64,000 bases of DNA from Symbiodinium sp. CCMP2592 (Eukaryota; Sar; Dinophyceae; Suessiales; Symbiodiniaceae), in the NCBI GenBank assembly GCA_905221615.1, contig CAJNDT010006023.1, positions 356,810 to 420,809 of the forward strand, in the 5' to 3' direction. Every line of letters starts with the position of its first letter. Position 1 is the stretch's first letter. A program made the position numbers and the translations under genes. Shown here piece after piece: positions 11,268-64,000 of the stretch. The notes below the pieces were generated by a model, which saw only the letters and a list, made by a program, of their open reading frames with translations, did no database searches and was not told the DNA's origin.

Positions 11268-12695
11268 TCACTTGCACTCAGCGACCACGATGGAACTGAA
11301 GGGCTGCATCTGCTGCACATACAGGTCGCCCGCACTTGCAAGAGCTAGCAAGGCCGTGAATGTCAAGGCTGCCGTGGTTCGGTCGGCTTCACCAGGTGGG
11401 ACCAATTTCTCAAACTCAGTGCTGTGGCCATCACGCCGCAAGCAATCCAATATGATTTGTCCGACCTCTGCTGTGCGATCATCCTGCACCTCCAGGTTGG
11501 CATCGGGCATGGGATCATCATGCATGGCCGCGTCCATATCTGCATGCTGTGCAGCACAGGAGCCGAGCGTGTCTCCCATATGGTCTGCATCCCATGTTTG
11601 CATGCCGGGCTGAGTGTGGCTATGAGCGTCAGGGAACGGGAGATCGCAAACTCCTCCAAGCAAAGATTCAACCTGCGGAGGCTCTCCCTGATCTCTTCCA
11701 ACTCCTGGTTGGTGGTAAATTGCTGCATCGGGATCTGCAACTTGCCGCAGCCAAAAACCGAAGTGATCAGCTTCCTGCAAGGAGTCTTCCATCATCTCAA
11801 CCTGGTCCACTGCCCCAAGCCGCGCTCGACAGAGCCTGTCATCGTCGAGCTGCCAATCGGCAACTTTTTGAGAGGGGATCATCGGATCAGAGTCAAAGCC
11901 ATACACCAATCCTGGGCGAAGAAGCGCAGCCGCAGCTCTCTCTGCACGCCTTCTTTTGAGCGATTGAACTGCCTCTCTGTTGCCCTCTCCTTGGCCACAG
12001 ACCTGTGGGTCATGCAATTCAATTGCATTCGGAGCACCCAAGAGCTGCATCAGGGGGTCGTTCGCGAGCTTTTCTTCGGGGTTCTGTCCCTCGCCTTCCA
12101 CTCGCTGCGGCTCGAGAGGGCCCAGCTCGAATCTCGGGAGCCAGTCCATCTCCGCTTTGTGCGGCGCAGCCATATCAGAGGCATTTGGATCCAGCAACTG
12201 CGGCATGGCTTCTGCAAGCTCAATCGACGGGAGAACATCCTGAGCAGCAGCACCACCAAGTTGCAATAGGGCCCCTTCTTCCAAGGGAGCCTGTGTCCAG
12301 TTGAAGGTTTCACAGGCTTCAACTTTCGCAAGATCCAAGTCCAATGTCAGAGCAGCCTCCATGCGCTGCCTTTTGGCGGCTGGCAGTCTGATCTTGTCCT
12401 CCGTGAATGGCTGTCGCGCAAACATGAGTACCAATCGCTCCGAGTCAAAGTACAGGGCACGAGCTCGCTCATTGTTCAGAACGCAGAAGCCCTTGATCAT
12501 TGTTCCATAAACACGCAATGTGAGGGGCTTCTCTGTGTTAGGACCGTGCTCCTGAATCAATCGATGCACTCGCTCTTGAATGTCGATGTCCACCTGCTTC
12601 TTACGCAAGCGTGCAGTGGAGGTCGCTGCCATCCAACACTCCCGCCAGCGCTCGTCATAGAGGTCGAAGGCAATCTCGGGCATCTCTATGGACAC
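11268..12695 (-). CDS. Kleisin, Rad21/Rec8-like cohesin subunit
   Basis: The alpha-kleisin closes the SMC1-SMC3 cohesin ring that holds sister chromatids together. The frame of about 475 codons begins with a diverged Rad21/Rec8 N-terminal domain: a WMAA motif at about residues 21-24, then RLRKKQVDIDIQERVHRLI and LRVYGTMIKGFCVLN, in the place of the usual 'LRLSGHLLLGVVRIY'-type strand. The middle is acidic and Gln/Pro-rich, as in the family. The last 65 residues (LRRDGHSTEFEKLVPPGEA, then AALTFTALLALASAGDLYV) fit the C-terminal winged helix that binds the SMC1 head. The frame stays open upstream to about 12790, and a CAG acceptor-like site lies next to 12697, so a short 5' exon carrying the true start is likely. 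Length is near the family's low end. No intron is visible inside, in contrast to the neighbouring gene. Confidence 0.75.
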   Translation of the reverse strand: MSIEMPEIAFDLYDERWRECWMAATSTARLRKKQVDIDIQERVHRLIQEHGPNTEKPLTLRVYGTMIKGFCVLNNERARALYFDSERLVLMFARQPFTEDKIRLPAAKRQRMEAALTLDLDLAKVEACETFNWTQAPLEEGALLQLGGAAAQDVLPSIELAEAMPQLLDPNASDMAAPHKAEMDWLPRFELGPLEPQRVEGEGQNPEEKLANDPLMQLLGAPNAIELHDPQVCGQGEGNREAVQSLKRRRAERAAAALLRPGLVYGFDSDPMIPSQKVADWQLDDDRLCRARLGAVDQVEMMEDSLQEADHFGFWLRQVADPDAAIYHQPGVGRDQGEPPQVESLLGGVCDLPFPDAHSHTQPGMQTWDADHMGDTLGSCAAQHADMDAAMHDDPMPDANLEVQDDRTAEVGQIILDCLRRDGHSTEFEKLVPPGEADRTTAALTFTALLALASAGDLYVQQMQPFSSIVVAECK

Positions 12696-12999
12696 TCTGC
12701 GGAAGCTGGGAAGCTTGCAGCTTGCAACTACTGCGCAGCTACTGAGGTGCGGGAGAGACTTGAATCGAAATGCAGCCAGACCAGCAAATCAACTGCTGTC
12801 AGGACGATTACTCCATCGTGTGAACTCGGGAGCGTGATCGGGACAGGCATCGACGAGCGGGAGGCGTGTTTGTCCCCCCAGCATTTCGAAGGACAGCAGG
12901 CTGTCAAGCCAATATGTACAAAGGGCTGATGCGGGTTTTCCGGATCACACCCCGTCGAGTCGCTGCAGAAATCCATCCGATGTTTATCTGAAGACGGAG

Positions 13000-19915: not shown

Positions 19916-19920
19916 ATACA

Positions 19921-20240
19921 CACTGCTTGGTTCGGCCAAGAGCAAGAGTGAAGAAAGGAAGGAAGAAAGATGCATGTTGTACTTGCTGGTTGTGCATGTC
20001 AGATTGCGGCAAACGTGCAAAAAACTGGCTGAATGTTCACTCACGACTGCTGAATGATTGCTCTAATCTGGACACCACAGGGAGCCTGTCCTCAGACAAT
20101 CTTGGCACCACAAGGGGCTGCCTTGCAGGTACGTGGCTCCAACGTCCCGGAACCATATCAGCACACTCTGAAGAGCCTCTTTGTTAGATGCCCACTCTTC
20201 AGGTGTGGGGCTCCCATGTGCTAGGGAGGTTCACACACAC
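19921..20240 (+). repeat. Left direct repeat flanking the retroelement region
   Basis: About 320 bases that recur at 29889-30286 in the same orientation with roughly ten mismatches over the first 290 bases. Both start at CACTG(C/A)TTGGTTCG and end at TGCTAGGGAGGTTCACACAC. The right copy carries about 75 extra bases before the shared end. The repeats enclose 9.6 kb that contains the decayed reverse transcriptase element. They may be the element's terminal repeats or an independent dispersed family. Confidence 0.85.
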
Positions 20241-22024: not shown

Positions 22025-22430
22025 TTAGGACCAGTCTGGTGCGTCCTGCCTCATTAGGCTCTCCAAAATATCGAGTTGTTGTTTACAACTCGCCATGATA
22101 GCGGTAGTAGCTTCACGCTGCTTGGTCAAAACCGTCGTGGCTTGCTGGACCAACTGCTCCAGCTTTGCCTGTGCCTCGGTCGTGGATGTGTGAAACTGGT
22201 GGAAGAGGTTGATGACCTCACGTATGTCTCCCGAAGCAATCGGTGTGGGATCCAGGTTGTCCGGAGGGTATGGTGGAGTGCTCGGTGCCGGAATGTCCGA
22301 TGTTGGGACAGTTACCGGGTCTTCATCTTGTTCTTCCTGTTCTTCCGCAATGCGAAGAATCTGTGTTCGTAGTGGTGGATGCAATTGCAGTGTTTCGTGC
22401 GCAGATGACGCCTGTCGGCGTCGGCGCTTT
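22025..22430 (-). CDS. Basic plus coiled-coil tail of the decayed element
   Basis: Starts with a basic run (SNLKRRRRQASSA), then an acidic stretch (RIAEEQEEQDEDPV), a Pro-rich spacer and about 70 residues of likely coiled coil (EVINLFHQFHTSTTEAQAKL, LVQQATTVLTKQREA). The frame upstream may continue from sequence after the reverse transcriptase. No known family; possibly nuclear targeting and oligomerisation of an element protein. Confidence 0.4.
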
Positions 22431-22641
22431 AAATTGCTCCTTGTGGATCGGATTGTGCCTCGGTCGGCTGTTCAATGCTTTATGCGTTGGTCGCAGCTTT
22501 CCCGACATAGCAGTCTTGTACATCTTCGTAGGAGTCGTTATACTGAGATGGCTGCGGCATGTATAACAATCAATGTTAAAGCTTGAAAAACGGTGCATGA
22601 ACATGCGCAGCTCACACAGCACAGCATAGGTCCACGTTTTT

Positions 22642-23917
22642 CTACAGCTGACGGTCACAGTATCTAGCTGCCACGTAGAGGTCACGCATGGCTCGAATGG
22701 CAGTGTAAGCTTTGTTGCTGGGTGTGGTGACCCTCTGTACGAGTCGTGTGCGTGCCTGGAAACTGCTGCGAAGTGTTCGGCAAGCGGTGGCAGAATGAGG
22801 GTGCAAAATGTCTGCTCTATGCAGACTGCATTGGTATGTGAGGCTGCGTTGCTCAGGGTCAATGGCGAAGCCCAGGAAAATGTTTGCCGGTTCAGTTTCA
22901 AGCTAGACCGGAGGCTTGTAAAAAGATGCAGCTGTGAGTTGCTTAAAAGGAGGCAGCTTGGCCAAGTGTTTCGGCAGCAAAAGTACTCTGTTGTCAACGT
23001 AGCGAGTTGCGAAGAAAATGGCGTGGTCTTTGTGTGTGTGTGTTGAGGAAAGTACTTGTGTTTGACAAAAAGTTGACGGTATGTGTGGCGCCAACATTGT
23101 TCCTCTACCACCACCACAAGATTACATAAGGCCGGGCTGCACGGTGATCCCATGAGCACCACACGGAACTGCTCGATGAGCGTGTTTCCAACCGTAAAAT
23201 AGTTGAGCATAAGTACTGCTACAATGAGTTGTGGAATGTGTTGAAGTTGAATGCCGAGTTTGTTACCCGACGATGCTTCCTGTTGCTTTTGTCTGCTCTT
23301 GCCCCGATGTACTCTGTGCTTGGGGTCCTTCTGTGAATGGTCGATGTAGAATGCGTTGGAGTGGAGCGGGTTTTTCTCTCGGTATCATCGCGCAAGTATG
23401 CTGTACGCTGAGAGAAATCGGCTCTTGTCGACCGAAGTGAAGAAACCTGCTAAATCCTGATTGCACAATACGTATTCCGCGGAGTCTCGGAGTTTGTGTG
23501 TGTCTTGCAAAAAGGTTGCTGCTTGAGTTGAGTGATGCCATCTCCCTGATGGAAAGAATCTGGACATGCCTGTGATGTCATGAGTTGTAAAACGTCCGCG
23601 AGTGCTTCCCATAGTTTCCTGCCCAGAGTGTCGAGAAATGCTACTATGGGGCGTCCTTTTGCAAATTGCTTCTTGCGTTTTGGTAAAATGTATGCTCGTG
23701 GTATGCGGCCCCATTGCGGGAAGGCCCAGGCGTAGTCTGGGAGCATGTAAACATCATAATGATGCTCGAGGGGTGCGTGAGTTGAAATCCGAAAGACCTC
23801 CTCATCAAGAAAGGTATTGTGGATGGCAGCGCGGTACCAAGCTTGGCAGTACCACAGGAGTCTGTTCGGGAAATGGTCTTCGCAGTGGATGGCTCCGGTT
23901 GGGAGTTGTTGTTGCAT
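22642..23917 (-). pseudogene. Reverse transcriptase with YVDN motif, broken
   Basis: Would copy element RNA into DNA. Readable motifs in order: AYILPKRKKQFAKGRPIVAF (fingers), LCNQDLAGFFTSVDKSRF (motif A, Asp), VVLMGSPCSPALCNLV (motif B), FFATRYVDNRVLLLP (motif C with Asp-Asn instead of Asp-Asp), then IFLGFAIDPEQRSLTYQ and a tail (AIRAMRDLYVAARYC). Breaks: frameshift near 23515-23540, in-frame TGA at 23387-23385, frameshift in the CA-rich run near 23030-23045, and in-frame TAG at 22905-22903. The frame finally stops at 22644-22642. Breaks of every kind argue for decay rather than programmed recoding. Confidence 0.8.
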
Positions 23918-29361: not shown

Positions 29362-29888
29362 TGCTGAAAAAACTGCGGTTGGTGGTTCATTCCCGCTGGG
29401 CGATGCAGCAAATTACTCGTGCCACATGTCGGTGAAACTGGATTGACAAGCATACTGCTACACGCAAAGCTTCCGGTGCCTTGTTGTCTTGAGGGACGTC
29501 GCGAGTGCAAAACCGATGGCCGATTACTTCCCGCAGGAAGCTGCAATCACTTGCATTAGACGAGAAATTACCACATCTGCACTCATGTCAGAAACACATG
29601 CCCTTGCATTCCCTGAGAAGGAAGAGACAAAATGAGGACGGCAGAATAGCGAGGTAGTCCTGTGCATTAGCGGCCAGTTACTACACCAGACGCCAGTTAC
29701 TGCACCTGCACTCATGTCAGACTCACATGCAGGCATCAGAGAGAGAGGGGAATAAGTAGCACTGGGAGATCTGAACGTCTGAACCAGAGGTCTGAACAGT
29801 CCGGTTCATCACAAGTTCCCCACGAGGGGTCACCACGGCGCCATGACGGAAAGCCGTTGCTCTGGAGTCTCATGACCCACGCTGATCA

Positions 29889-30286
29889 CACTGATTGGTT
29901 CGCCCAAGAGCAAGAGTGAAGAAAGGAAGGAAGAAAGATGCATGTTGTACTTGCTGGTTGTGCATGTCAGATTGCGGCAAACGTGCAAAAAACTGGCTGA
30001 ATGTTCACTCACGACTGCTGAATGATTGTTCTAATCTGGACACCACAGGGGGCCTGTCCTCAGACTAATCTTGGCACCACAGGGGGCTGCCTTGCAGGTA
30101 CGTGGTTCCAGCGTCCCGGAACCATATCAGCACACTCTGAACAGCCTCTTTGTTAGATGCCCACTCTTCAGGTGGGGCATCCCCCTGCAAATGTACTGTG
30201 TAACATGTGAGCAACAAAACGAAACCAAGCAATCAATACTAGGAGTGACCCTCTGCTCCCATGTGCTAGGGAGGTTCACACACACA
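29889..30286 (+). repeat. Right direct repeat flanking the retroelement region
   Basis: Partner of 19921-20240, same strand, about 96% alike over the first 290 bases. Between GGTGGGGCATCC and GCTCCCATGTGC it carries about 75 bases absent from the left copy. It is followed at once by a CATA microsatellite (30287-30310), whereas the left copy is preceded by one. Confidence 0.85.
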
Positions 30287-48180: not shown

Positions 48181-48189
48181 CCCCCGGCG

Positions 48190-48768
48190 TTTAACCCAGG
48201 TTTGAACCTGGGTTTGAACCTGGGTTTGAACCTGGCTTAAACCTGGGTTCGAACTTGGGTTCAACCCCGGGTTAAACCCAGGTTATAACCCAGGTTTGAA
48301 CCCAGGTTTGAAACCCAGGTTCTAACCCAGGTTTGGAACCCGGGTTTAATGAACCCAGGTTTAACCCAGGTTAAAACCCAGGTTCAAACCCAGGTTAAAC
48401 CCAGGTTCCAAACCCAGGTTTGAAACCCAGGTTCCAACCCAGATTTGGAACCCGGGTTTTAAAACCACCCAGGTTTAAACCCAGGTTATAACCCAGGTTT
48501 GAACCCAGGTTTGAAACCCAGGTTCTAACCCAGGTTTGCAACCCAAGTGTAAAGCACCCAGGTTTAATTAACCCAGGTAAAAACCCAACCCAGGTTTGAA
48601 ACCCAGGTTCTAACCCAGATTTGGAACCCGGGTTTAAAAAAAAACAGGTGTAAACCCAGGTTATAACCCAGGTTTGAAACCCAGGTTCTAATAGGTTTGG
48701 AACCCAAGTTTAAAGCACCCAGGTTTAACCCAGGAAAAAACCCAGGTTCAAACACAGGTTAAACCCAG
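48190..48768 (+). repeat. AACCCAGGTT minisatellite with internal orientation switch
   Basis: About 580 bases of imperfect 12-17-base units built on AACCCAGGTTT. From about 48198 to 48262 the units read mainly GTTTGAACCTGG; after an AACCCCGGGTT centre near 48265 they read AACCCAGGTT, the reverse complement. Longer units of roughly 110-130 bases (ending TTTGGAACCCGGGTTTAA or similar) recur at least four times. No coding sense. Confidence 0.9.
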
Positions 48769-54330: not shown

Positions 54331-54430
54331 CCCACCCCCTTTGACAAAGGGGGGCTTAAGCCCCCCTTTAAGCCCCCCTTTAAGCCCCTTTAAAGCCCCC
54401 TTTAAAGGGGTCTTCCCTAAGGGGGGGGTG
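54331..54430. repeat. C-run/G-run palindromic tract (CCCCCCTTTAAG units)
   Basis: Four to five CCCCCCTTTAAG-like units bounded by reverse-complementary runs (AAGGGGGGCTTAAGCCCCCC, and CTTTAAAGGGG before GGGGGGGG). It can fold on itself at several registers. It lies about 200-300 bases beyond the copia element's likely 3' end. Confidence 0.8.
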
Positions 54431-54639
54431 AGCCGATACACCCACAAGGAAATGCTCCTTGTTAGGAGGTGTATGACCAGTTTATTCCCTAAGGATCAAA
54501 GGGCAGCGCCCTGCACACGGACAGTAGTTGTTTTGTCTTGCTACGCAAGGAGAGCTTGTCTTGTCTCAATATGGTAAAACCACTGTGAGCCAATGGGCAG
54601 CGGAATGTATATGTATGAGCATGCAGCCATTGCTGTAGG

Positions 54640-54990
54640 TACCTGTTAGAGCTACCCCTTTAGAGGTTTACGCAAACAAACAGACACTAATTTTCTTTTA
54701 CCGGAAGCATGGCCGCACATTCACACATATACTATTATGCCCACTGTCACAGTTGCGGAGTTTGGACTCATGATAAAAACAGCATATTGTTTATGCTAGG
54801 TATAGCACTGAAGTACACTGTTGAAGTCACTCTTGAAATCACTCCTTTTGAACTCTTTCATGCACATTGGTCAGAGAGATCGTCTGTACAGGATCAGGTC
54901 TGGTAATGTTCTTCTATCGAATTATGCAGCCCTTCACTGTGCTCTTGTTAGAGCCTTGTGAGTCACTGTTGTGAAACTCTGAGATTTTCC
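54640..54990 (-). repeat. Candidate 3' LTR / 3' untranslated end of the copia element
   Basis: No gene is visible. On the element strand the sequence just after the ORF stop starts TCTGAGATAAGGAAAATCTCAG, a small palindrome. The word GCTCTAACA occurs at 54954-54946 and 54654-54646, and one of these could be the LTR end. No clear polypurine tract was seen. Assignment depends on finding the 5' LTR beyond 64000. Confidence 0.3.
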
Positions 54991-57900
54991 TTATCTCAGA
55001 TTTGGATCCAGGTTTGGATCATAGGCTCGAGCATAGACGTTCGGATGTGGTTCATCCGGGTCTGAGTGATCTTCTTCGGAACTTGAAAAGATTCCGAGTA
55101 ATCTGTTCTCAGCCCTGGTGAAGGCGGCGTCTGCAGTGTCATATCCATGGTTGGATGTAGTCGCCTTTGGCTCGGCCTTTGGTGCAGCTTGTGAGCTGAT
55201 TGGAGTTGCCTCGGCTTTAGCCGGTTGTGGCTGCTTAGCCTTTGCCCGTTCGGCCCTTCTTCTTTCAAGCTGTCCGTCTGAGGACGCCCATGATCTTTCA
55301 CTTTCATCTCCTGAGGGAGATAAGGCGTGGGCATGAAGGCTGTTCCAGTACTGTGCTGCAGAAGGAGTTAGGACTTCTTCATGGTCAGATTCTGACTGGT
55401 CTTCCTCAGAGCTTTGGTCGTCAAAAAGTGTCTCAAGGACATTTTTGAGGTTTTTATGTCTTCGCTCTATCTCTAGTGAGGAATGGACCAATTGATTGAA
55501 GACTGTTTTTGAGTCCTTCAGTGCTGTTAGAAGGATTTCCACTCTGGATAGAGTATCTTGGATGGTGTCAAGATGATCCTTTCTTTCCTCCTTGTCTCTC
55601 TGGATAGAGTTTCGCAATGATTGTGCGATTCTGAGGAGGTCGAGATATTTCTCAATAGGCATAGTTACCGTATGATTGTCATGTATGACAGTTGTTTCGT
55701 CGCTGCTCAAGTTCCTGAATAGGACTTCCACGACTGGTAGAAACTCCGTGCTCCACGGTTCCTCTTCATCATATGTTTCTACGTGCTGTTGCACGCGTTG
55801 TGTAAACTGCTCGGCTGCTTCTACCGTTGCATCGATAGAGCTGACGTGTCTTACTGCCATGTTTCGGCACATAGTGTTAATGGCCTGGCCTTGATTGGCT
55901 TCGCCAAGTGCAGCGTCTGCATGGTTGCAGAGTCCACTGTTATGGGCTTCTCTAGCTGCTTTTCGTTGAATGCGCCGATTTTGACCTCCTCTTCTGGTAG
56001 GACCTTTTGGTCTCGGAGGATCTGAAGGTACTGTTCCTTTCGCCTTTGGCGGAGGAGTCTTAGGTGGAGGTGACATGTTTGCCTTGTTAGGCACTGGTGG
56101 CATTGCCTTGGGCACTGACGACGATGAGGCACTTGCGAGTGCAGATGTACCTCTGGCTCTTGCCGAGGATCCCTTAGGGATTGATGTATAGGTAATCTGC
56201 ATGGCTTCTTCGGCCATTTGTGAATGCAATGCATCACTGAATAATTGCCTCATATGAGGAGTAGTACTTGCATCGTCATAGGTTTGAAACCGTTCAATGT
56301 CCCTTTCGGTGCCACGTGATCGTGTATCACCTCTTTGAAAAGGATCGTTCCTGCGAATCTCCGCAACTTGTACTGCCTGGAGGCAGGTTTTACACAGCAC
56401 CTTCCTTGAAACATCTTTTGCTTGCTTGAGCTGGTAACAGCTGTCTGAAAGATGGTAGACTTCGCTTCGGGAAGTGTGCCACACAGGTCGCAAATCCGTT
56501 GTTTCTCCAGAATTGACCCTGTTGGGTCCTAAAGGTTCACGCGTCTGTGGTTCATTCTCGGGTTCGAGAAATGGTGGTGGTCGTTTCGCTGCTGCTTTTG
56601 CATTTGATTGTTGGCGGTCCATACATCTGATGGGAGCCCTGGTGAGCTGCTTCCACATCCAGTGTAGGCCCATTAGCAGCAGAAACACATTCCACGCGAT
56701 GCTGAAGACGGAGAAGTCTTGCTCACTGGTTAGTGAGTTTGGAAGTGAAGGTTCATCAGTCTTGATAGACTCTCCCTTTGCACCGCCTTGATTAGGGTGT
56801 CCGAACCAGTTCGACAACCCTGCTGCTGTGGCAGCTGTTCGGAGTGCCTTGCTGCTCGGAGCAGACGGCGGTCGCGATGACTTCCTTCTTCTTCTGCGAC
56901 TGGAAGATTCTTCCTCCTGTTCGTCTTCATCTCTTTGAGCCGACATCAGGTTTGATGTTTCTCGTTCGTGCTCTTCGATATCACTTTTTGTTGGAGATTG
57001 TTCTTCCTCAAGTGTGTCCAGTTCCTCTAAAGACATGTTGAGCTTGTCAACAATATTGGTTCTTTGAGGTCTGGATCTCGATCTTGGTAGATCTTGTTGT
57101 GAAGAGGACGATGATGCCTGGCTCCTTCTTGGAGGAGAGCCTTCAGGCTCGCTGGGACGTTCAGGCTGTGGCCTTTCCCAGAATCTTCCATATCTGTGAT
57201 AGCTACCTTGTGGTTGCTGTCTGTCGTACCAGCTGTTGCCAGATGAATACATAAATGAGTCTTTGTAATCCCAGTATTCAGCATTACGCTGCTTGTAAGC
57301 CTGTCGCTTGTCAGCGATCTTCTGAACCTGGGCATCTGACCGGTTGTGTTTCCCTTTTGTAAGGATTGGTTGTATCGTGAAGCCCAAAGGGCTGTGCCAA
57401 TCTTTGTCAGAGGGACTCAACCACAGGTCAAGGTTAGAAAAAGTTGAATAGTACTGCTTGACTGAGACAAACAGACGGATATCGATATCCCTGTTTCTGT
57501 TCATGTCCTGCCACATATCTGAGACTCGTTCCCAGTATGTTCTTTCGGCGGCAGGTGTAGCATCTCTTGGACTAGGTGACGCCGTGTGCGGCGTTTTACT
57601 CCAGTCAAGGATATAACTGTTGATACAGTCGAGGTCAGCAACTTTCTTCGCCGGGTCCGGCGGTAGACGATCTGCACGTGCCAGTCTGTGCTGGTCAGAG
57701 TTGTTCAAGCAGAGGTGTCGCACTTGTGAGTGCCTTCCTGCTATTCTGTTGAATGCTGCAAGTTTCTTCTCCAGGTATAGAGAAAACAAACCGTTTCGCG
57801 GGTGAACGTCTCCACCTTTTAAGGTGAGCCTCGACGCAATATTATTGAGATCCCCCGCAATTACATCCGGTTTGAAAGGGAGAACCTCGTTGAGGAACGC

Positions 57901-60900
57901 GTTCACCAGTTCGCGCCTCTGTTCTTCCTTATGAGTCATGTATGAGTTGAAATGGACGATCGCGATGGTGATGACCTTGTAAGGCCCTTTTGTACACCAC
58001 ATCTCGTCAAGATCGTTTGATGCTTCTTGTGAGAAGATCTCTGCGTATGACTCAAAGTCTTCCTCTGGTGGCTCATCACCCTCGACATGGCCGTTCCATT
58101 CACAGAGAACCGGCGAAGGGTCGAGGTCCGACAGTGTCAGACACGCCTCTGGTGAGAGGTAAGAGCCATCAGTGGGTCCATCCTTGTCAGGATTTTTACC
58201 CTTGAGAGGGTCATATCCGATAATCTTCATGTACTCATCTCTCGTCATCCTCTGGCCGGAATATGGGTGGACCCATTCTTTTGCCTCCTTGATGGTACTG
58301 TGGTACCCAAAGGTGAGGCGGCATACCGCACCGTGGCATGCCCACAGTCGCTTCTTGGGACCACCAGCCTTAGGCTTCATTGTTCGGTGACGGTAAAAGT
58401 GGTGGACGAGAGAGATGTCTGTTGTTGGGTCACCCTTGACTCCAATATACATTGAGGGTGCCTCAGGCTCCTTGGGAGGAGAATGGATTAGCATCCCTCT
58501 GTATTCATGTTGTCGCATGGTTGCGATCGAATACTTTGACGCAAGTGCTCCTGCCTCGAGTACGAGGGTAATATGTGCTGAATTGTTGAAGCACATGTCA
58601 ATAAGAGGGTGGTAATCGAATCCCTTCTCAGGTTTGAGTTTCTTTTTGGGATTCCCTGCTGGCACTGGCGCTCGATCCATATTTCCCCAGTTGCATACCA
58701 CTAGGCTTAGTGATACGCTGTCTGGGTTTGAGCCCTCTATGTGTTCTCTCTTTTCGTTAACACCGGCCATCCTATTACGAACTATCTCGTAATGTGCGTC
58801 GAGCACCAGTTTGTCTTCGTAGCCAGTAAGAGAGAGAAAAGACGCCGGGTGGCTTGTTCTGGAGTCCTTGATATTGATGTGACCCTTGTTGATGCTCTTG
58901 TATTCCTCCAGGGTTGGAGCCTCTGTGGAGCTGGTGTAAGTATTAGGAGGATTATTCCTAATATCATCAAAGCTACATGGATCAACGCCTGGATGGGCTC
59001 TCATGAACGAATTCCTTGCGTGGTCGCAATACATGTTGATTTTCTGGACTGCCAAATCTACGTCCTCATGTGTGAGGATGGCCTCGTATAAAACCTGACG
59101 CTCTTCTGAGATCATTCCTGCTGACACTTTAGAGGTCTCGAGGCAATCGATTGGCAAGATGCACTCGCACATCTGTTGTTTACCCTGTGGGGTAAGTCGA
59201 CAGTCTGCACATACAATCGTACCACAGGAATAGCAAAAATAGCCTGTAGGCTGGTTGCAAAGATCGCAGAGAGGATTATCTGGTCGTGTCATCAGCCGTA
59301 TCCTTTGGTTAAGACTCATGGCTGTCCTGCGTACTCCTACAAATCTCTCCTTGGTAGGAGGTGCAGAGGAGGAAGATGCCGAATCTCTGGGTCTGTCCCA
59401 CTCCTCTTCGTCAGGAGCCTCAGAATCCTTGATCATGAGTGGACTTCGGATTTTTCGATTCCATCGACTAACCCAGATTCTCTCTTTCATTTCCTGTTGC
59501 ATAGCCGGGTTAGACGATGACTTCGAGATTCGGTGCTTGCGATTTTCTCGAAGTCGAGCGCTGATGCGCTCATGTTCTCTTACGAGATCTTCCTCATCAG
59601 CAGGTTCCTCGTATTCGAGGTTGAGCTTGCTTCTGTTGACTCGATAATAACTTTCTGTTTCAGGATCGAAGAGAACTAGGAATTTCTCCTTCTCCTTTTT
59701 AGGAGATTTTGGTTTCTGTGGCTCTTCGTCTGAACTCTGAACATATTCTGCTTCAGGCTTTGGTTGGTCAAGTTTGACCTCCTTAAGTTTCTCTGTGATC
59801 TCTTCCGTGGGAGATTCTTTCTTCTCCTCCGACGCTGCAGGTGCAGAGTTCGTCTTGTGAGACGGATTAACATCAACTCGGAGTTCTGAGGATGACGAAG
59901 ATTTTGAGCTCTTTTCGCTTGATGCCGACTCATCGTCTGATTCTTCGTCACGATCCTGGTTAGGATCCGGTTCCTCAGGTTCCGTCTCTGTTCCAGAAGA
60001 TTCTTCCTTGGGAGGAACTACGTTGGCGGAAGTATCCTGAACAGGTTCTGGAGGTTTGTGACCTGTCGTTATCTTAAGAACTTCGGTGGCGCTTCTGGTG
60101 CCGTCGGAGTTCCAGAGCTGTCCCATAAGACTGTCCGGATCCTTGTCAGCCTCGGCCTGCCGGGCGAGCTTGGATCTCGGATGGATCTCCTTTGCAGTAG
60201 TCTCCGTTTTCGGAGGTACCTCACCTGCAGAAGCGGTTTGCTCCAGGTTTGGAGCTGTGTCAGCCTCTGTCTTTGGCAGAGAAAAAGACTTCTTGTGAGA
60301 AGATCTAGCCTTGGGAGGCTCTGGTGGCAGATTTCGCCTTGCCACTTTTCGAAGTGCCGATTCGATTTCTCGGCCGTAATTTGCGCACCATTTCTTCGAC
60401 TCGTAAGTCGCTGACGGCATCTGTTCGGAGCAATGGTCTGCCCACCATGGTCCGATGCTCTTGAGCTCATCGTATTGCGATGATACCCAGAGTGTTTCAG
60501 AGGGTGCGAATACGGCGCTAAGAGTACGGGCATGCACTACATCTGGTGTAGCAAACATCCCTACTTGCGACTGCCACAGGTTTGTGACCTCGTTCACTAC
60601 GTTATTTGCATCGAATACCAGAAGCAGTGCCTTATTGGCACGCAACATGGTCGGATTGGGATTCGCCAGGTTTAGCGTTGAGAACTGAACAGTGTCCCTG
60701 TTGGAACGACTGTTTTCATTCACGAGAGCTTGGAAATCTGGTGCTGTAACCACCTGCGCTAGGAGGTTTGATGGTACCAGACCGTGCCTCAGGATTGAGG
60801 ATAATGCCTGTAGGTCCGTGGCATGCATGATGTAACAAGGGTTGTTCTGTCGAACAAAATCCTCCATGCCGACGGGCCTCGGCGCGTTAGTGGAGAGACG

Positions 60901-62130
60901 CTGTGCACGGGACTGCACTGGATTGCTCCCCGTTGCCATGAAGTCTGAGATGGTCATGTGTGACCTTGGTCTCTCTTCTTCAGGATCTGGTTCTTCAGCT
61001 CTTGGTAGAGTTCGTCGTGAACCGTGTCCTCCCACTGCCGAAAGGAAAATTTTGCTCATGGTCAACACATTTGCATCCGGTGGGATGTTAACGGCGGCAT
61101 CTGTGGTTTCGGCCTTGCCATCTTTGTTATAAACCATGGTGACCACAAACCTAGACTTAGTGTTGAGGAGGACACCAAGCGCGATCTCTTGTGGTGTATA
61201 CTGTGCGAGCTCTGCATCGGCCAACTTGAACATGTCCAGAAGATAATTGTGTTGGCCAGCAAAGAGATCTGGGCGCTGGTTCTGAAGGTGTCTTGTTGAG
61301 TGTGCCAACCACCTTCCGACTCTGTTGGTCTTGGAAAGAATGTGGAAGCACATCTCTGGTGAGAGACCTGTTACATCTGCCAGTTTTGGCACTGAGGAGG
61401 AATAGTCATATTCTCCGGATCCATCAAGGCTCACACATTGTTCTACCTCCGGTGGGAGGCCTGTCTGAAGGTGATGTGCAAGCATCGTACAGAACTGGCG
61501 TGGATCACGAGCGTGATTACCGACGTTGTTATCCCAGTATACAAGGGGACTGTTGTCCCATGGTCCTTGAAGGACTCCTTCGTAGAGCCTGACTCCATGT
61601 CTGGAGTTTAGAGTGAGCCTTGCTCCACTCGCATGGCCATATCGTGAGATCAATTGAGCAAGATCTCTTGGATGCGGATTGAACACCTGTTGGTGACCCA
61701 TGATGATGAATTGAGGCTCGTGATTTTTCTCACGTTTGTGAATTCGGTGTCCACCGTGTTCGGTGTTTCGACGTGATGCTTCCCGACGAGACTCGGGGTA
61801 CGAGCTATCCATGTGTGGATGTCGCTCATGGTACGCCTGCACTGCCCTGGGTAGGGCGTGTCCATCACGGCTACGGAAGTTTGATCGTGTGCTCATTACG
61901 GCACAATGACCAAACAGGATCAGGAACGCTTGGTTAGCCCGAAAGGCTGATTGCTGTGAGGCTCGAGGCTGAAAGCGGCTGCGGATGATACAGAACATAT
62001 AATTCTCATGAACATGTCCGATCTTAATGAAAACGCAGCTCGCAGACACAAATTTTCTTTTAGACGGAAAACAGTCTAAATAGAAAATCCAGCACATGGT
62101 TGTGCTACCAGCAAACGAGACTACCACCAT
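54991..62130 (-). CDS. Giant copia 3' ORF: possible ART-like, zinc, EEP-like and membrane segments
   Basis: An unbroken 2379-codon frame; the Met-Ser-Thr-Arg at residue 79 is an alternative start. Visible parts: residues 430-560, possible Tpt1/PARP-type ADP-ribosyltransferase-like domain (YIMHATDLQALSSILRHGLV); 640-820, acidic Ser/Glu-rich; 955-990, Cys cluster CxxC-x7-CxxC-x4-CxxC-x10-CxC, B-box or FYVE-like; 1138-1590, endonuclease/exonuclease/phosphatase-like domain (VVCNWGNMDR, LVLEAGAL, ITIAIVHFNS, DVIAGDLNN, then SDKDWHSPL); 1670-1760, Arg/Ser-rich; about 1804-1828, a hydrophobic helix (FSVFSIAWNVFLLLMGLHWM); about 1883-1916, a second Cys/His group (VWHTSRSEVYHLSDSCYQL, CKTC); and a C-terminal coiled-coil and acidic tail. 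Domain names are by eye. A 3' frame after copia pol recalls the env-like ORF of Sireviruses, but nothing here resembles an envelope protein. Confidence 0.8.
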   Translation of the reverse strand: MVVVSFAGSTTMCWIFYLDCFPSKRKFVSASCVFIKIGHVHENYMFCIIRSRFQPRASQQSAFRANQAFLILFGHCAVMSTRSNFRSRDGHALPRAVQAYHERHPHMDSSYPESRREASRRNTEHGGHRIHKREKNHEPQFIIMGHQQVFNPHPRDLAQLISRYGHASGARLTLNSRHGVRLYEGVLQGPWDNSPLVYWDNNVGNHARDPRQFCTMLAHHLQTGLPPEVEQCVSLDGSGEYDYSSSVPKLADVTGLSPEMCFHILSKTNRVGRWLAHSTRHLQNQRPDLFAGQHNYLLDMFKLADAELAQYTPQEIALGVLLNTKSRFVVTMVYNKDGKAETTDAAVNIPPDANVLTMSKIFLSAVGGHGSRRTLPRAEEPDPEEERPRSHMTISDFMATGSNPVQSRAQRLSTNAPRPVGMEDFVRQNNPCYIMHATDLQALSSILRHGLVPSNLLAQVVTAPDFQALVNENSRSNRDTVQFSTLNLANPNPTMLRANKALLLVFDANNVVNEVTNLWQSQVGMFATPDVVHARTLSAVFAPSETLWVSSQYDELKSIGPWWADHCSEQMPSATYESKKWCANYGREIESALRKVARRNLPPEPPKARSSHKKSFSLPKTEADTAPNLEQTASAGEVPPKTETTAKEIHPRSKLARQAEADKDPDSLMGQLWNSDGTRSATEVLKITTGHKPPEPVQDTSANVVPPKEESSGTETEPEEPDPNQDRDEESDDESASSEKSSKSSSSSELRVDVNPSHKTNSAPAASEEKKESPTEEITEKLKEVKLDQPKPEAEYVQSSDEEPQKPKSPKKEKEKFLVLFDPETESYYRVNRSKLNLEYEEPADEEDLVREHERISARLRENRKHRISKSSSNPAMQQEMKERIWVSRWNRKIRSPLMIKDSEAPDEEEWDRPRDSASSSSAPPTKERFVGVRRTAMSLNQRIRLMTRPDNPLCDLCNQPTGYFCYSCGTIVCADCRLTPQGKQQMCECILPIDCLETSKVSAGMISEERQVLYEAILTHEDVDLAVQKINMYCDHARNSFMRAHPGVDPCSFDDIRNNPPNTYTSSTEAPTLEEYKSINKGHINIKDSRTSHPASFLSLTGYEDKLVLDAHYEIVRNRMAGVNEKREHIEGSNPDSVSLSLVVCNWGNMDRAPVPAGNPKKKLKPEKGFDYHPLIDMCFNNSAHITLVLEAGALASKYSIATMRQHEYRGMLIHSPPKEPEAPSMYIGVKGDPTTDISLVHHFYRHRTMKPKAGGPKKRLWACHGAVCRLTFGYHSTIKEAKEWVHPYSGQRMTRDEYMKIIGYDPLKGKNPDKDGPTDGSYLSPEACLTLSDLDPSPVLCEWNGHVEGDEPPEEDFESYAEIFSQEASNDLDEMWCTKGPYKVITIAIVHFNSYMTHKEEQRRELVNAFLNEVLPFKPDVIAGDLNNIASRLTLKGGDVHPRNGLFSLYLEKKLAAFNRIAGRHSQVRHLCLNNSDQHRLARADRLPPDPAKKVADLDCINSYILDWSKTPHTASPSPRDATPAAERTYWERVSDMWQDMNRNRDIDIRLFVSVKQYYSTFSNLDLWLSPSDKDWHSPLGFTIQPILTKGKHNRSDAQVQKIADKRQAYKQRNAEYWDYKDSFMYSSGNSWYDRQQPQGSYHRYGRFWERPQPERPSEPEGSPPRRSQASSSSSQQDLPRSRSRPQRTNIVDKLNMSLEELDTLEEEQSPTKSDIEEHERETSNLMSAQRDEDEQEEESSSRRRRRKSSRPPSAPSSKALRTAATAAGLSNWFGHPNQGGAKGESIKTDEPSLPNSLTSEQDFSVFSIAWNVFLLLMGLHWMWKQLTRAPIRCMDRQQSNAKAAAKRPPPFLEPENEPQTREPLGPNRVNSGETTDLRPVWHTSRSEVYHLSDSCYQLKQAKDVSRKVLCKTCLQAVQVAEIRRNDPFQRGDTRSRGTERDIERFQTYDDASTTPHMRQLFSDALHSQMAEEAMQITYTSIPKGSSARARGTSALASASSSSVPKAMPPVPNKANMSPPPKTPPPKAKGTVPSDPPRPKGPTRRGGQNRRIQRKAAREAHNSGLCNHADAALGEANQGQAINTMCRNMAVRHVSSIDATVEAAEQFTQRVQQHVETYDEEEPWSTEFLPVVEVLFRNLSSDETTVIHDNHTVTMPIEKYLDLLRIAQSLRNSIQRDKEERKDHLDTIQDTLSRVEILLTALKDSKTVFNQLVHSSLEIERRHKNLKNVLETLFDDQSSEEDQSESDHEEVLTPSAAQYWNSLHAHALSPSGDESERSWASSDGQLERRRAERAKAKQPQPAKAEATPISSQAAPKAEPKATTSNHGYDTADAAFTRAENRLLGIFSSSEEDHSDPDEPHPNVYARAYDPNLDPNLR

Positions 62131-64000
62131 ATTCCTTGGCAGTAAAATAATCGGTAAATCTCTGTTGAGATATCAATTCCAAGGAAGGCTACCGCTGTGG
62201 CGGCATTCTTGAGATTGTCTATGATCCACCGAACAGTGAAAGCTTTATGTTGAAGAAGTTCACGGAAGGGTGGATGAATGTCTGTTTCTGGTAAATTCCC
62301 TGTTTCCAGAGCCTTGATAAGCTCATCAGGTTGCGCCGAGTGCTTTGTTAATGCATCAGCTAGGCAGTACTTCGAGCTTACATGAGCTAGGTCATCTAAA
62401 GATCCAGAGTTGGATTCCTTACGAAGCATCTGAATGAGGTGGTGAGTTTCCTTCTGCTCTGGAAGGTGTGTCGTGCCTGCTGTTGTCACAAGATTGTTCG
62501 CATCTGTTCTGATATGTATGGGTACGGTCTCTGATGAGAGATCTGCCCAAAGTCCCTTGAGGAACAGGCAGGTACCAAAGCAACGCATCAGTGCGTTAAG
62601 CTCTGCCACTGTTGTGGACATTGTGGTTGTCGTAATCTTGTGAGACTCATAATCCACCAGGCTACCTCTCGAGGATGTTTCCTTAATAGAGGATTCAGAG
62701 AAATCGTTCTTCTTGGAAGAAGCAGCTGCTGCTGATTGTTTCATTCCCTTTAGCTTTGGATTTCGATCTTCAGCAAGGAAAATAACATGTGCTCTCTGAG
62801 ATGATTTGTCATCATTGTTCCTGTAGGAAGCATCAGGGTAACCGAGGATTCTGAGATTTCCTTTCAGCGGCCAAAAACGCAGTTCTACTTCAGTAGACTT
62901 CAAAATCCTAACAAGCTTGTTCAATTCTCGAATATCACCGATAGTAGGCTTGGCAGCCTTACTCGCACACCGACTGAAGCGATAACAGATGTGAGCTTGA
63001 GTCCGGCTTTGTAGCCAGTTGATCTGTCCTAAAACACTTCTGTAAGCAGTGTGCTGCTGTGGTGTGCATTGTTGCTCATTGTTGAGCTTCTTATCAAAAA
63101 CAATTTCCTCTAGAGCTTCAACAGCTAGGTTCTGATTTACTGAGATATGTGCTGGTACCGATGCTGTAGCATCCTTCCAGACTAATCTCTGTCCTACAAA
63201 CATAATATCGTTCGTGTCTTCAGAACCGACTGCAAACTCCTTTTTGATCGATTCAATCACGGCCTTACGAAAGGTGTCATCACCGGCCATGCACAGGTCA
63301 TCTACATGTAAACAGACTACTCCATGTACCTGTCTACCCTTGGCATTGTTGCCTGCTATGGGATCTAGGAGATAGTCAATCGCTGATTCCATGGTCTTTG
63401 GCTGAGACTTCTTGAGCTCAGCATCTGCTGTTGCAGACTTCTTACCATACAGAACATATGTACAGCGATCCGCACGGGTTGGCACCAGGCCGTAAGACAG
63501 GAGTGCCTTATCAACGATGTTCCACCATCTTCGAGGTGCATCGTTAAGTCCATAAGCGGGTTTCTTCATCCTCGCTGCAATGTAGGGAGGATAACCTGCT
63601 TCAGGAGGAATCTGACAGATTATGTCTCTCGACTCATCATAGGCTTCACCCTGCAGAAAAGCAGTCTTTAGGTCGATGTGTGTCAGATTCCACAGCTTGT
63701 TAGCTGCTAGTTGAATCGCTAAGCGGAAACCTGGGCGACTCGCAGCAGGACTATCAGTTTGCTGTATGTCCTTTTGTCGATCCTGGAAACCTCTTAGGAC
63801 CCATCGGGCCTTGCACTTAAGGAAGTTTCCGTCCTTATCTCTTTTTAGAGTCAGGACCCATCGACCAGTGACATAATTTCGGATGTTTCCGAGTTTCCGT
63901 GTATCGACGAGCTCAAAGACATCATTGTCTAGCCAGCTCTGATATTCTGCTGCTTTCGCTTCATCAAACTGTTTCTTCATCTCACGCTTTTCTTTGGCGG
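62121..64000 (-). CDS. Ty1/copia pol: reverse transcriptase and RNase H, truncated by window edge
   Basis: Copies element RNA into DNA and removes the RNA strand. The frame is open to the window edge, so the Met at 63980 is internal. Counting from that Met: WVLTLKRDKDGNFLKCKARW at about 41-60, catalytic Asp103 in HIDLKTAFLQGE, YGLNDAPRRWW at about 143-153, and the Asp227-Asp228 pair in LHVDDLCMAG. RNase H follows with Asp383 (YPDASYRN), Glu460 (MSTTVAELNAL), Asp493 (RTDANNLV) and Asp542 (LADALTKH). All catalytic residues expected of copia RT and RNase H are present. The stop is TAG at 62123-62121, inside the start of the next frame (ATGGTGGTAG). Confidence 0.95.
   Translation of the reverse strand, partial: AKEKREMKKQFDEAKAAEYQSWLDNDVFELVDTRKLGNIRNYVTGRWVLTLKRDKDGNFLKCKARWVLRGFQDRQKDIQQTDSPAASRPGFRLAIQLAANKLWNLTHIDLKTAFLQGEAYDESRDIICQIPPEAGYPPYIAARMKKPAYGLNDAPRRWWNIVDKALLSYGLVPTRADRCTYVLYGKKSATADAELKKSQPKTMESAIDYLLDPIAGNNAKGRQVHGVVCLHVDDLCMAGDDTFRKAVIESIKKEFAVGSEDTNDIMFVGQRLVWKDATASVPAHISVNQNLAVEALEEIVFDKKLNNEQQCTPQQHTAYRSVLGQINWLQSRTQAHICYRFSRCASKAAKPTIGDIRELNKLVRILKSTEVELRFWPLKGNLRILGYPDASYRNNDDKSSQRAHVIFLAEDRNPKLKGMKQSAAAASSKKNDFSESSIKETSSRGSLVDYESHKITTTTMSTTVAELNALMRCFGTCLFLKGLWADLSSETVPIHIRTDANNLVTTAGTTHLPEQKETHHLIQMLRKESNSGSLDDLAHVSSKYCLADALTKHSAQPDELIKALETGNLPETDIHPPFRELLQHKAFTVRWIIDNLKNAATAVAFLGIDISTEIYRLFYCQGIWW

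Follow-up and report, generated by a model that had tools for sequence, protein, structure and literature searches.

A giant open reading frame behind a copia-type reverse transcriptase in Symbiodinium: a possible accessory gene with a B-box-like zinc finger and ART-like and EEP-like regions

Additional open reading frames in sense orientation, located after pol and ahead of the 3' LTR, have been described in plant LTR retrotransposons under the names aORF-3S and env-like ORFs; in the sections of that source used here, these ORFs are compared with ENV, some of them with transmembrane domains, an env-like role is proposed for some elements, and splicing is reported for some, for example barley Bagy2 (PMC7264820). 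Juno and Vesta of bdelloid rotifers are LTR elements whose ORF3 encodes an enzyme, a DEDDy exonuclease or a GDSL esterase, according to the part of the paper cited, and the term ADP-ribos is absent from its text (PMC5408684). In Symbiodinium, DIRS and LINE elements with DNA methyltransferases offer a further case of captured nucleic-acid-modifying enzymes, the Copia elements in the cited portion of that study being without DNMT (PMC5890265). KptA domains, an ART-type NAD-using module, are found in the proteins and polyproteins of some viruses; the section concerned names phages, certain DNA viruses and a small number of RNA viruses (PMC9503650). Accessory domains of retrotransposons are discussed for antiviral defence in the relevant part of an opinion paper (PMC6338049), and heat-activated copia elements are mentioned in a passage of a dinoflagellate genomics review (PMC11453091). 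Among the matches listed in a search of open-access full texts, a corpus outside which most subscription papers lie, and in the cited portions of these papers, there was no report of an ART (ADP-ribosyltransferase) or EEP (endonuclease/exonuclease/phosphatase) domain in a copia element.

The locus considered here belongs to Symbiodinium sp. CCMP2592 and lies towards the end of the window, by which we mean the whole 64,000-nucleotide stretch of DNA that was analysed. Like the plant elements it has an extra sense ORF behind pol and, like Juno and Vesta, an extra ORF with enzyme-like content. It differs from the plant sense ORFs by its size of about 2,300 codons and by having a zinc finger, an EEP-like region and an ART-like one, from Juno and Vesta by the enzyme superfamilies and the element group concerned (PMC5408684), from the DNMT-bearing elements of Symbiodinium by being of copia type with other enzymes (PMC5890265), and from the viral KptA proteins by the presence of a NAD lobe only, weakly supported, behind a copia pol. 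The reading we prefer, with a probability of roughly 0.55, is that the giant ORF is the copia element's own accessory gene, encoding a multidomain protein whose translation would begin at Met79 of a separate spliced mRNA and which would shield the element's intermediates.

The giant frame occupies positions 54991-62130 of the minus strand without interruption and counts 2379 aa from its first ATG (62130), or 2393 aa (54991-62172, minus strand) when measured from stop to stop. The longest run without a stop codon among 500 first-order Markov replicates of this stretch was 345 codons (mean 152), and the other five frames across the ORF contain 68-139 stops. It is preceded on the same strand by the C-terminal part, RT and RNase H, of a copia-type pol (62121-63998), whose match to PF07727 RVT_2 (E=1.9e-18) identifies a copia-type reverse transcriptase, and which carries HVDDL, YPDAS, VAELNA, RTDAN and ADALTK, which we take to be RT and RNase H motifs. 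The intact 2379-codon frame that the first-pass annotation had placed behind copia pol in the same orientation is therefore real and adjoins the RT/RNase H frame. The window ends at 64000 within pol, and the protease, integrase, gag, PBS and 5' LTR would fall beyond it; tblastn at E 1e-3 detected no second copy of pol or of the giant ORF within the window, the linkage between the two being a single observation at one locus.

The same annotation had the giant frame overlapping pol, which holds only for the open frame, by 10 nt when counted from the ATG and by 52 nt from stop to stop, whereas a true overlap is doubtful, the first 78 or so codons being non-coding-like. A codon model derived from the giant ORF from codon 401 on gave the 40-codon bins within codons 1-80 values of -0.285, -0.157 and -0.160, below all others among the 20 bins scored; codons 61-100 scored -0.076, codons 81-140 were positive, and the bins from codon 81 on ranged from -0.09 to 0.20. 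Between codons 121 and 300 the bins lay between -0.09 and 0.11, later ones being higher, with values near zero in some bins that look truly coding. The 224 nt from the pol stop to Met79 (61897-62120, minus strand) form a spacer that is non-coding-like by composition and codon scores, with a T content of 0.34 versus 0.20 in the remaining ORF. Because of this T-rich spacer and the non-coding-like first codons, we take Met79 (61896) as the likely real start of the extra gene, whose probable coding part would extend over 2301 codons to the stop (54991-61896, minus strand) inside an open frame that begins at 62172; the overlap with pol is then probably a mere property of the open frame. Expression by frameshifting from pol was considered and rejected in favour of a separate start: although the ORF occupies the -1 frame, inspection by eye showed no slippery heptamer where the two frames overlap, and codons 1-78 have a non-coding character. 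Two AG acceptor-like sites read by eye in the spacer, TTTCTATTTAG ending at 62076 and CGCTTTCAG ending at 61969, could allow the extra gene to be expressed from an mRNA made by splicing; the first ATG past the site ending at 61969 is that of Met79, which would fit a spliced or leader-spliced mRNA. None of four short exact DinoSL-like words was present on either strand.

Whether pol and the giant ORF form one element or are mere neighbours is addressed by their composition. The sense-strand A content is 0.302 in pol, 0.304 in the ORF and 0.296 in the 561-nt A-rich tail that follows it (54430-54990, minus strand) and that is, by composition, the probable end of the element; it is 0.21 in the next 2 kb of flank, and the spacer has the same value. 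The minus-strand A excess surpasses 0.16 in 10 of the 64 1-kb bins, four within 24-29 kb, where another stretch is flanked by repeats, and six from 55 to 61 kb. A composition equal to that of pol and unlike that of the flank favours a single element, though as indirect evidence. The alternative that retains the most weight, although we consider it unlikely, is an accidental adjacency in which the copia element would end soon after pol, its 3' LTR lost or hidden in the spacer, and the ORF would be an intronless host gene or a retrogene. It would account for the lack of an identified LTR pair in a window that stops within pol, for the non-coding-like first 78 codons and 224-nt spacer, whose composition resembles neither frame, and for an A excess that is weaker in the two bins holding pol (0.04 and 0.15, the latter value being also that of the bin at 2 kb) than in most ORF bins (0.18-0.30). 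It sits badly with an ORF and a 3' tail whose A content equals that of pol and departs from that of the flank, and with two frames lying on one strand at a distance of 224 nt.

The 3' end of the element may be marked by a candidate 3' LTR of 258 nt of the TG...CA form (54429-54686, minus strand), located behind an A-rich tract. At E 1e-5 neither this candidate nor the 3' tail has a partner elsewhere in the window, and any 5' partner would fall beyond the window. Tandem C-rich/TTTAA repeats are present at 54356-54405, next to the presumed 3' end.

Other features were noted elsewhere in the window. A 292-nt direct repeat, 96.6% identical between 19919-20209 and 29887-30177, brackets about 9.7 kb in which most bins show a minus-strand A excess and several minus-strand ORFs have no Pfam match at E 0.1. 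The frame 22323-23384 holds a GSPCSPALCNLVV stretch, presumably reverse-transcriptase-like, and the repeat-flanked stretch at 20-30 kb may be the decayed remains of a second element of LTR or DIRS-like type. The comparison of five of its ORFs, and of one just outside, with the giant ORF yielded noise only (best phmmer E 0.6). A 506-aa frame at 11268-12788 (minus strand) has a Rad21/Rec8 domain in its N-terminal part at E=5.3e-8 and is matched weakly in its C-terminal part (0.0044), which makes it look like a cohesin kleisin-like host gene, and a degenerate array of a 12-nt repeat (GTTTGAACCCAG), which also matches itself in inverted orientation, occupies 48189-48768.

The firmest domain of the giant ORF, and one that is fairly supported, is a B-box-like zinc finger at residues 951-979 (59194-59280, minus strand). 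The zf-B_box family matches a 200-aa piece with E=2e-5 and 25.1 bits, over the curated cut-off of 24.1, and the whole protein with E=4.1e-4 and 20.9 bits, under that cut-off; the zinc-binding-type cluster suspected beforehand finds fair support in this. A second possible metal cluster, H-x4-C ... C-x2-C, was read from the sequence at residues 1891-1916 (VYHLSDSC...CKTC; 56383-56460, minus strand); it resembles a small zinc-binding fold, and no Pfam family fits it.

The ART-like region is best understood by reference to Tpt1/KptA, a member of the ART superfamily (PMC9503650) which, in the part of the literature cited, is characterized by an HGT motif and by an Arg-His-Arg-Arg tetrad spread across both lobes, three of the four residues being in the N-lobe (PMC6333775). 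In the giant ORF, the region resembling a NAD lobe comprises residues 428-528 (60547-60849, minus strand) with an H-A-T motif (His436), the H-x-T form being a mark of the ART superfamily, and it comes nearest to Tpt1/KptA and DarT. Searched with residues 400-600, Pfam gave PTS_2-RNA (Tpt1/KptA) on top at E=0.013, followed by DUF7002 (0.021) and DUF4732 (0.041), all three spanning the same H-A-T stretch. The sole PADLOC match of the region is DarT, also a member of the ART superfamily, at E=0.02 and over profile positions 7-54 of 196 only. A profile of seven KptA sequences scored 26.5 against the region, a value reached by 0 of 100 shuffles (maximum 19.8), the reversed sequence giving 16.5 and five non-overlapping windows of the ORF 11-17; with HMMER the region obtained E=0.01, above all 200 shuffles. 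Taken alone, the C-lobe, which is the NAD lobe, had a score that none of 150 shuffles reached, and the N-terminal RNA lobe of Tpt1 a score matched by 30 of 150. A full Tpt1 identity, both lobes of which had first been read by eye, was therefore abandoned after the N-lobe failed this shuffle test, and only the NAD lobe is claimed; nor can the region be placed in the Tpt1/KptA family itself, since HAT replaces the hallmark HGT and the N-lobe scores no better than shuffles, the R-H, K-x-R and R candidates having been read by eye only. In single-sequence comparisons kptA ranked 4th of 38 E. coli proteins, the hhalign probability against KptA was 8%, and the whole giant protein had no ART match in Pfam at E up to 1. 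The matches at E 0.013-0.02 come from hand-picked pieces and can be chance, because unrelated Pfam families reach similar values elsewhere in the ORF (Stealth_CR4 0.019 in the EEP-region piece, MukF_C 0.028 in the C-terminal piece). The possible ART-like domain that had been announced at this place thus retains a signal above shuffles, but a weak one, and an ART fold is suggested at that strength.

The EEP-like region covers residues 1134-1590 (57361-58731, minus strand), on the evidence of a profile test and motif positions. Six motifs, CNWGN, VLEAG, IVHFN, GDLN, DLWLS and SDKDWHS, follow one another in the order of the EEP family, the catalytic set N, E, H/Y, DxN, D, SDH being in order, but with the last reading SDKDWHS. 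A profile of four EEP proteins scored 33.7 against residues 1120-1600, where 0 of 100 shuffles reached that value (maximum 23.4), and gave 15.0 with the reversed sequence and 14-18 with four non-overlapping windows of the ORF. When HMMER ranked 504 sequences, of which 500 were shuffles, the region came top, with only 8.8 bits; the hhalign probability was 25%, and Pfam returned no EEP match with the whole giant protein or with pieces of it. Searches of PDB sequences with the EEP and ART pieces, and NCBIfam and PHROGs scans with five ORF pieces each, gave nothing convincing, and tblastn of the EEP region against phage records found no match at E 0.01. Viral contigs scanned with pol and with each of three pieces of the giant ORF gave one weak match, over only 40 aligned residues on a contig whose ORFs look phage-like, which was treated as chance. 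Since both the EEP-like and the ART-like regions had been pointed out beforehand by the first-pass annotation, the profile tests support them and are not independent discoveries. Of the claimed EEP-like domain, the motif order and the above-shuffle score stand, at a weak level and without a Pfam match, and the fold is suggested with weak support.

The comparison of this region with the enzyme type used by LINEs, which had accompanied the claim, is probably wrong. LINE endonucleases are EEP enzymes of the Tyr type. Here His1393, in IVHFN, takes the place of the Tyr of exonuclease III; the E. coli EEPs YbhP and YafD also have His there, and membership in the LINE/AP-type group was rejected on this account. 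The step from this His to the G of GDxN is 33 residues; it is 33 in YafD and 32 in YbhP, whereas the Tyr-type exonucleases XthA and 2jc4 have 41 and 40. When single E. coli proteins, 38 in all, were compared with the region, YbhP was best with 28.7, the unrelated regulator YafC scoring 28.6, and YafD and XthA came 15th and 20th.

The remainder of the protein bears on another alternative, which we regard as improbable: an env-like or structural accessory ORF acting in membrane targeting, particle assembly or chaperoning, its enzyme-like motifs being degenerate or coincidental. Env-like ORFs occupy the same place, after pol and towards the 3' end, in the passages cited above (PMC7264820). The enzyme matches are weak, there is a membrane-like stretch, and residues 601-800, 1601-1800 and 2001-2100, likely flexible linkers, contain few hydrophobic and many charged or polar residues. 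However, the stretch that had been called a membrane helix (residues 1806-1824; 56659-56715, minus strand) is present as a hydrophobic segment of marginal strength, the highest 19-residue Kyte-Doolittle mean of the whole ORF being 1.56 at residue 1806; moreover, none of 100 shuffles equalled the score of either enzyme region, and the EEP motifs stand in family order with the His-to-GDxN spacing retained. An integration enzyme, in which the EEP would nick target DNA and alter the insertion of the element as LINE endonucleases do, is very improbable even for an EEP-like region within a retroelement, the motif being His-type like YbhP/YafD and not Tyr-type like XthA, and copia elements normally encoding their own integrase, in a region that here lies beyond the window. 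That idea could otherwise appeal to Exo_endo_phos, which is among the domains of the DNMT-bearing retrotransposons of Symbiodinium in a figure legend (PMC5890265).

The accessory-gene reading starts from an intact ORF, its place behind pol and its pol-like composition; the mRNA, activity, substrates and anti-host role of the protein, as we infer them, would be the following. The accessory gene, positioned between pol and the 3' LTR, would have a spliced mRNA of its own, with translation beginning at Met79. Consuming NAD+, the ART-like domain would attach ADP-ribose to RNA, to DNA ends or to a host factor, the B-box-like zinc domain would serve as an adaptor for protein contacts, and the His-type EEP phosphodiesterase would trim or cleave nucleic acid. 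The protein would be dispensable for reverse transcription and would guard the element RNA or cDNA against host silencing or decay. A more ambitious version, which we advance as a speculation and think doubtful, is that of a copia lineage equipped with a giant effector, in which a Tpt1/DarT-like ART and a His-type EEP would direct NAD+ chemistry at nucleic acids and so defeat host decay or silencing.

In conclusion, the giant ORF would, if the accessory-gene reading is true, provide a testable candidate for how copia elements resist their hosts, and if a copia element does encode a protein both ART-like and EEP-like, the range of NAD-based conflict chemistry would widen to include retrotransposons. 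Could an LTR retrotransposon carry a gene for counter-defence, as phages and RNA viruses are known to do? If the effector reading is true, this would be the case here.
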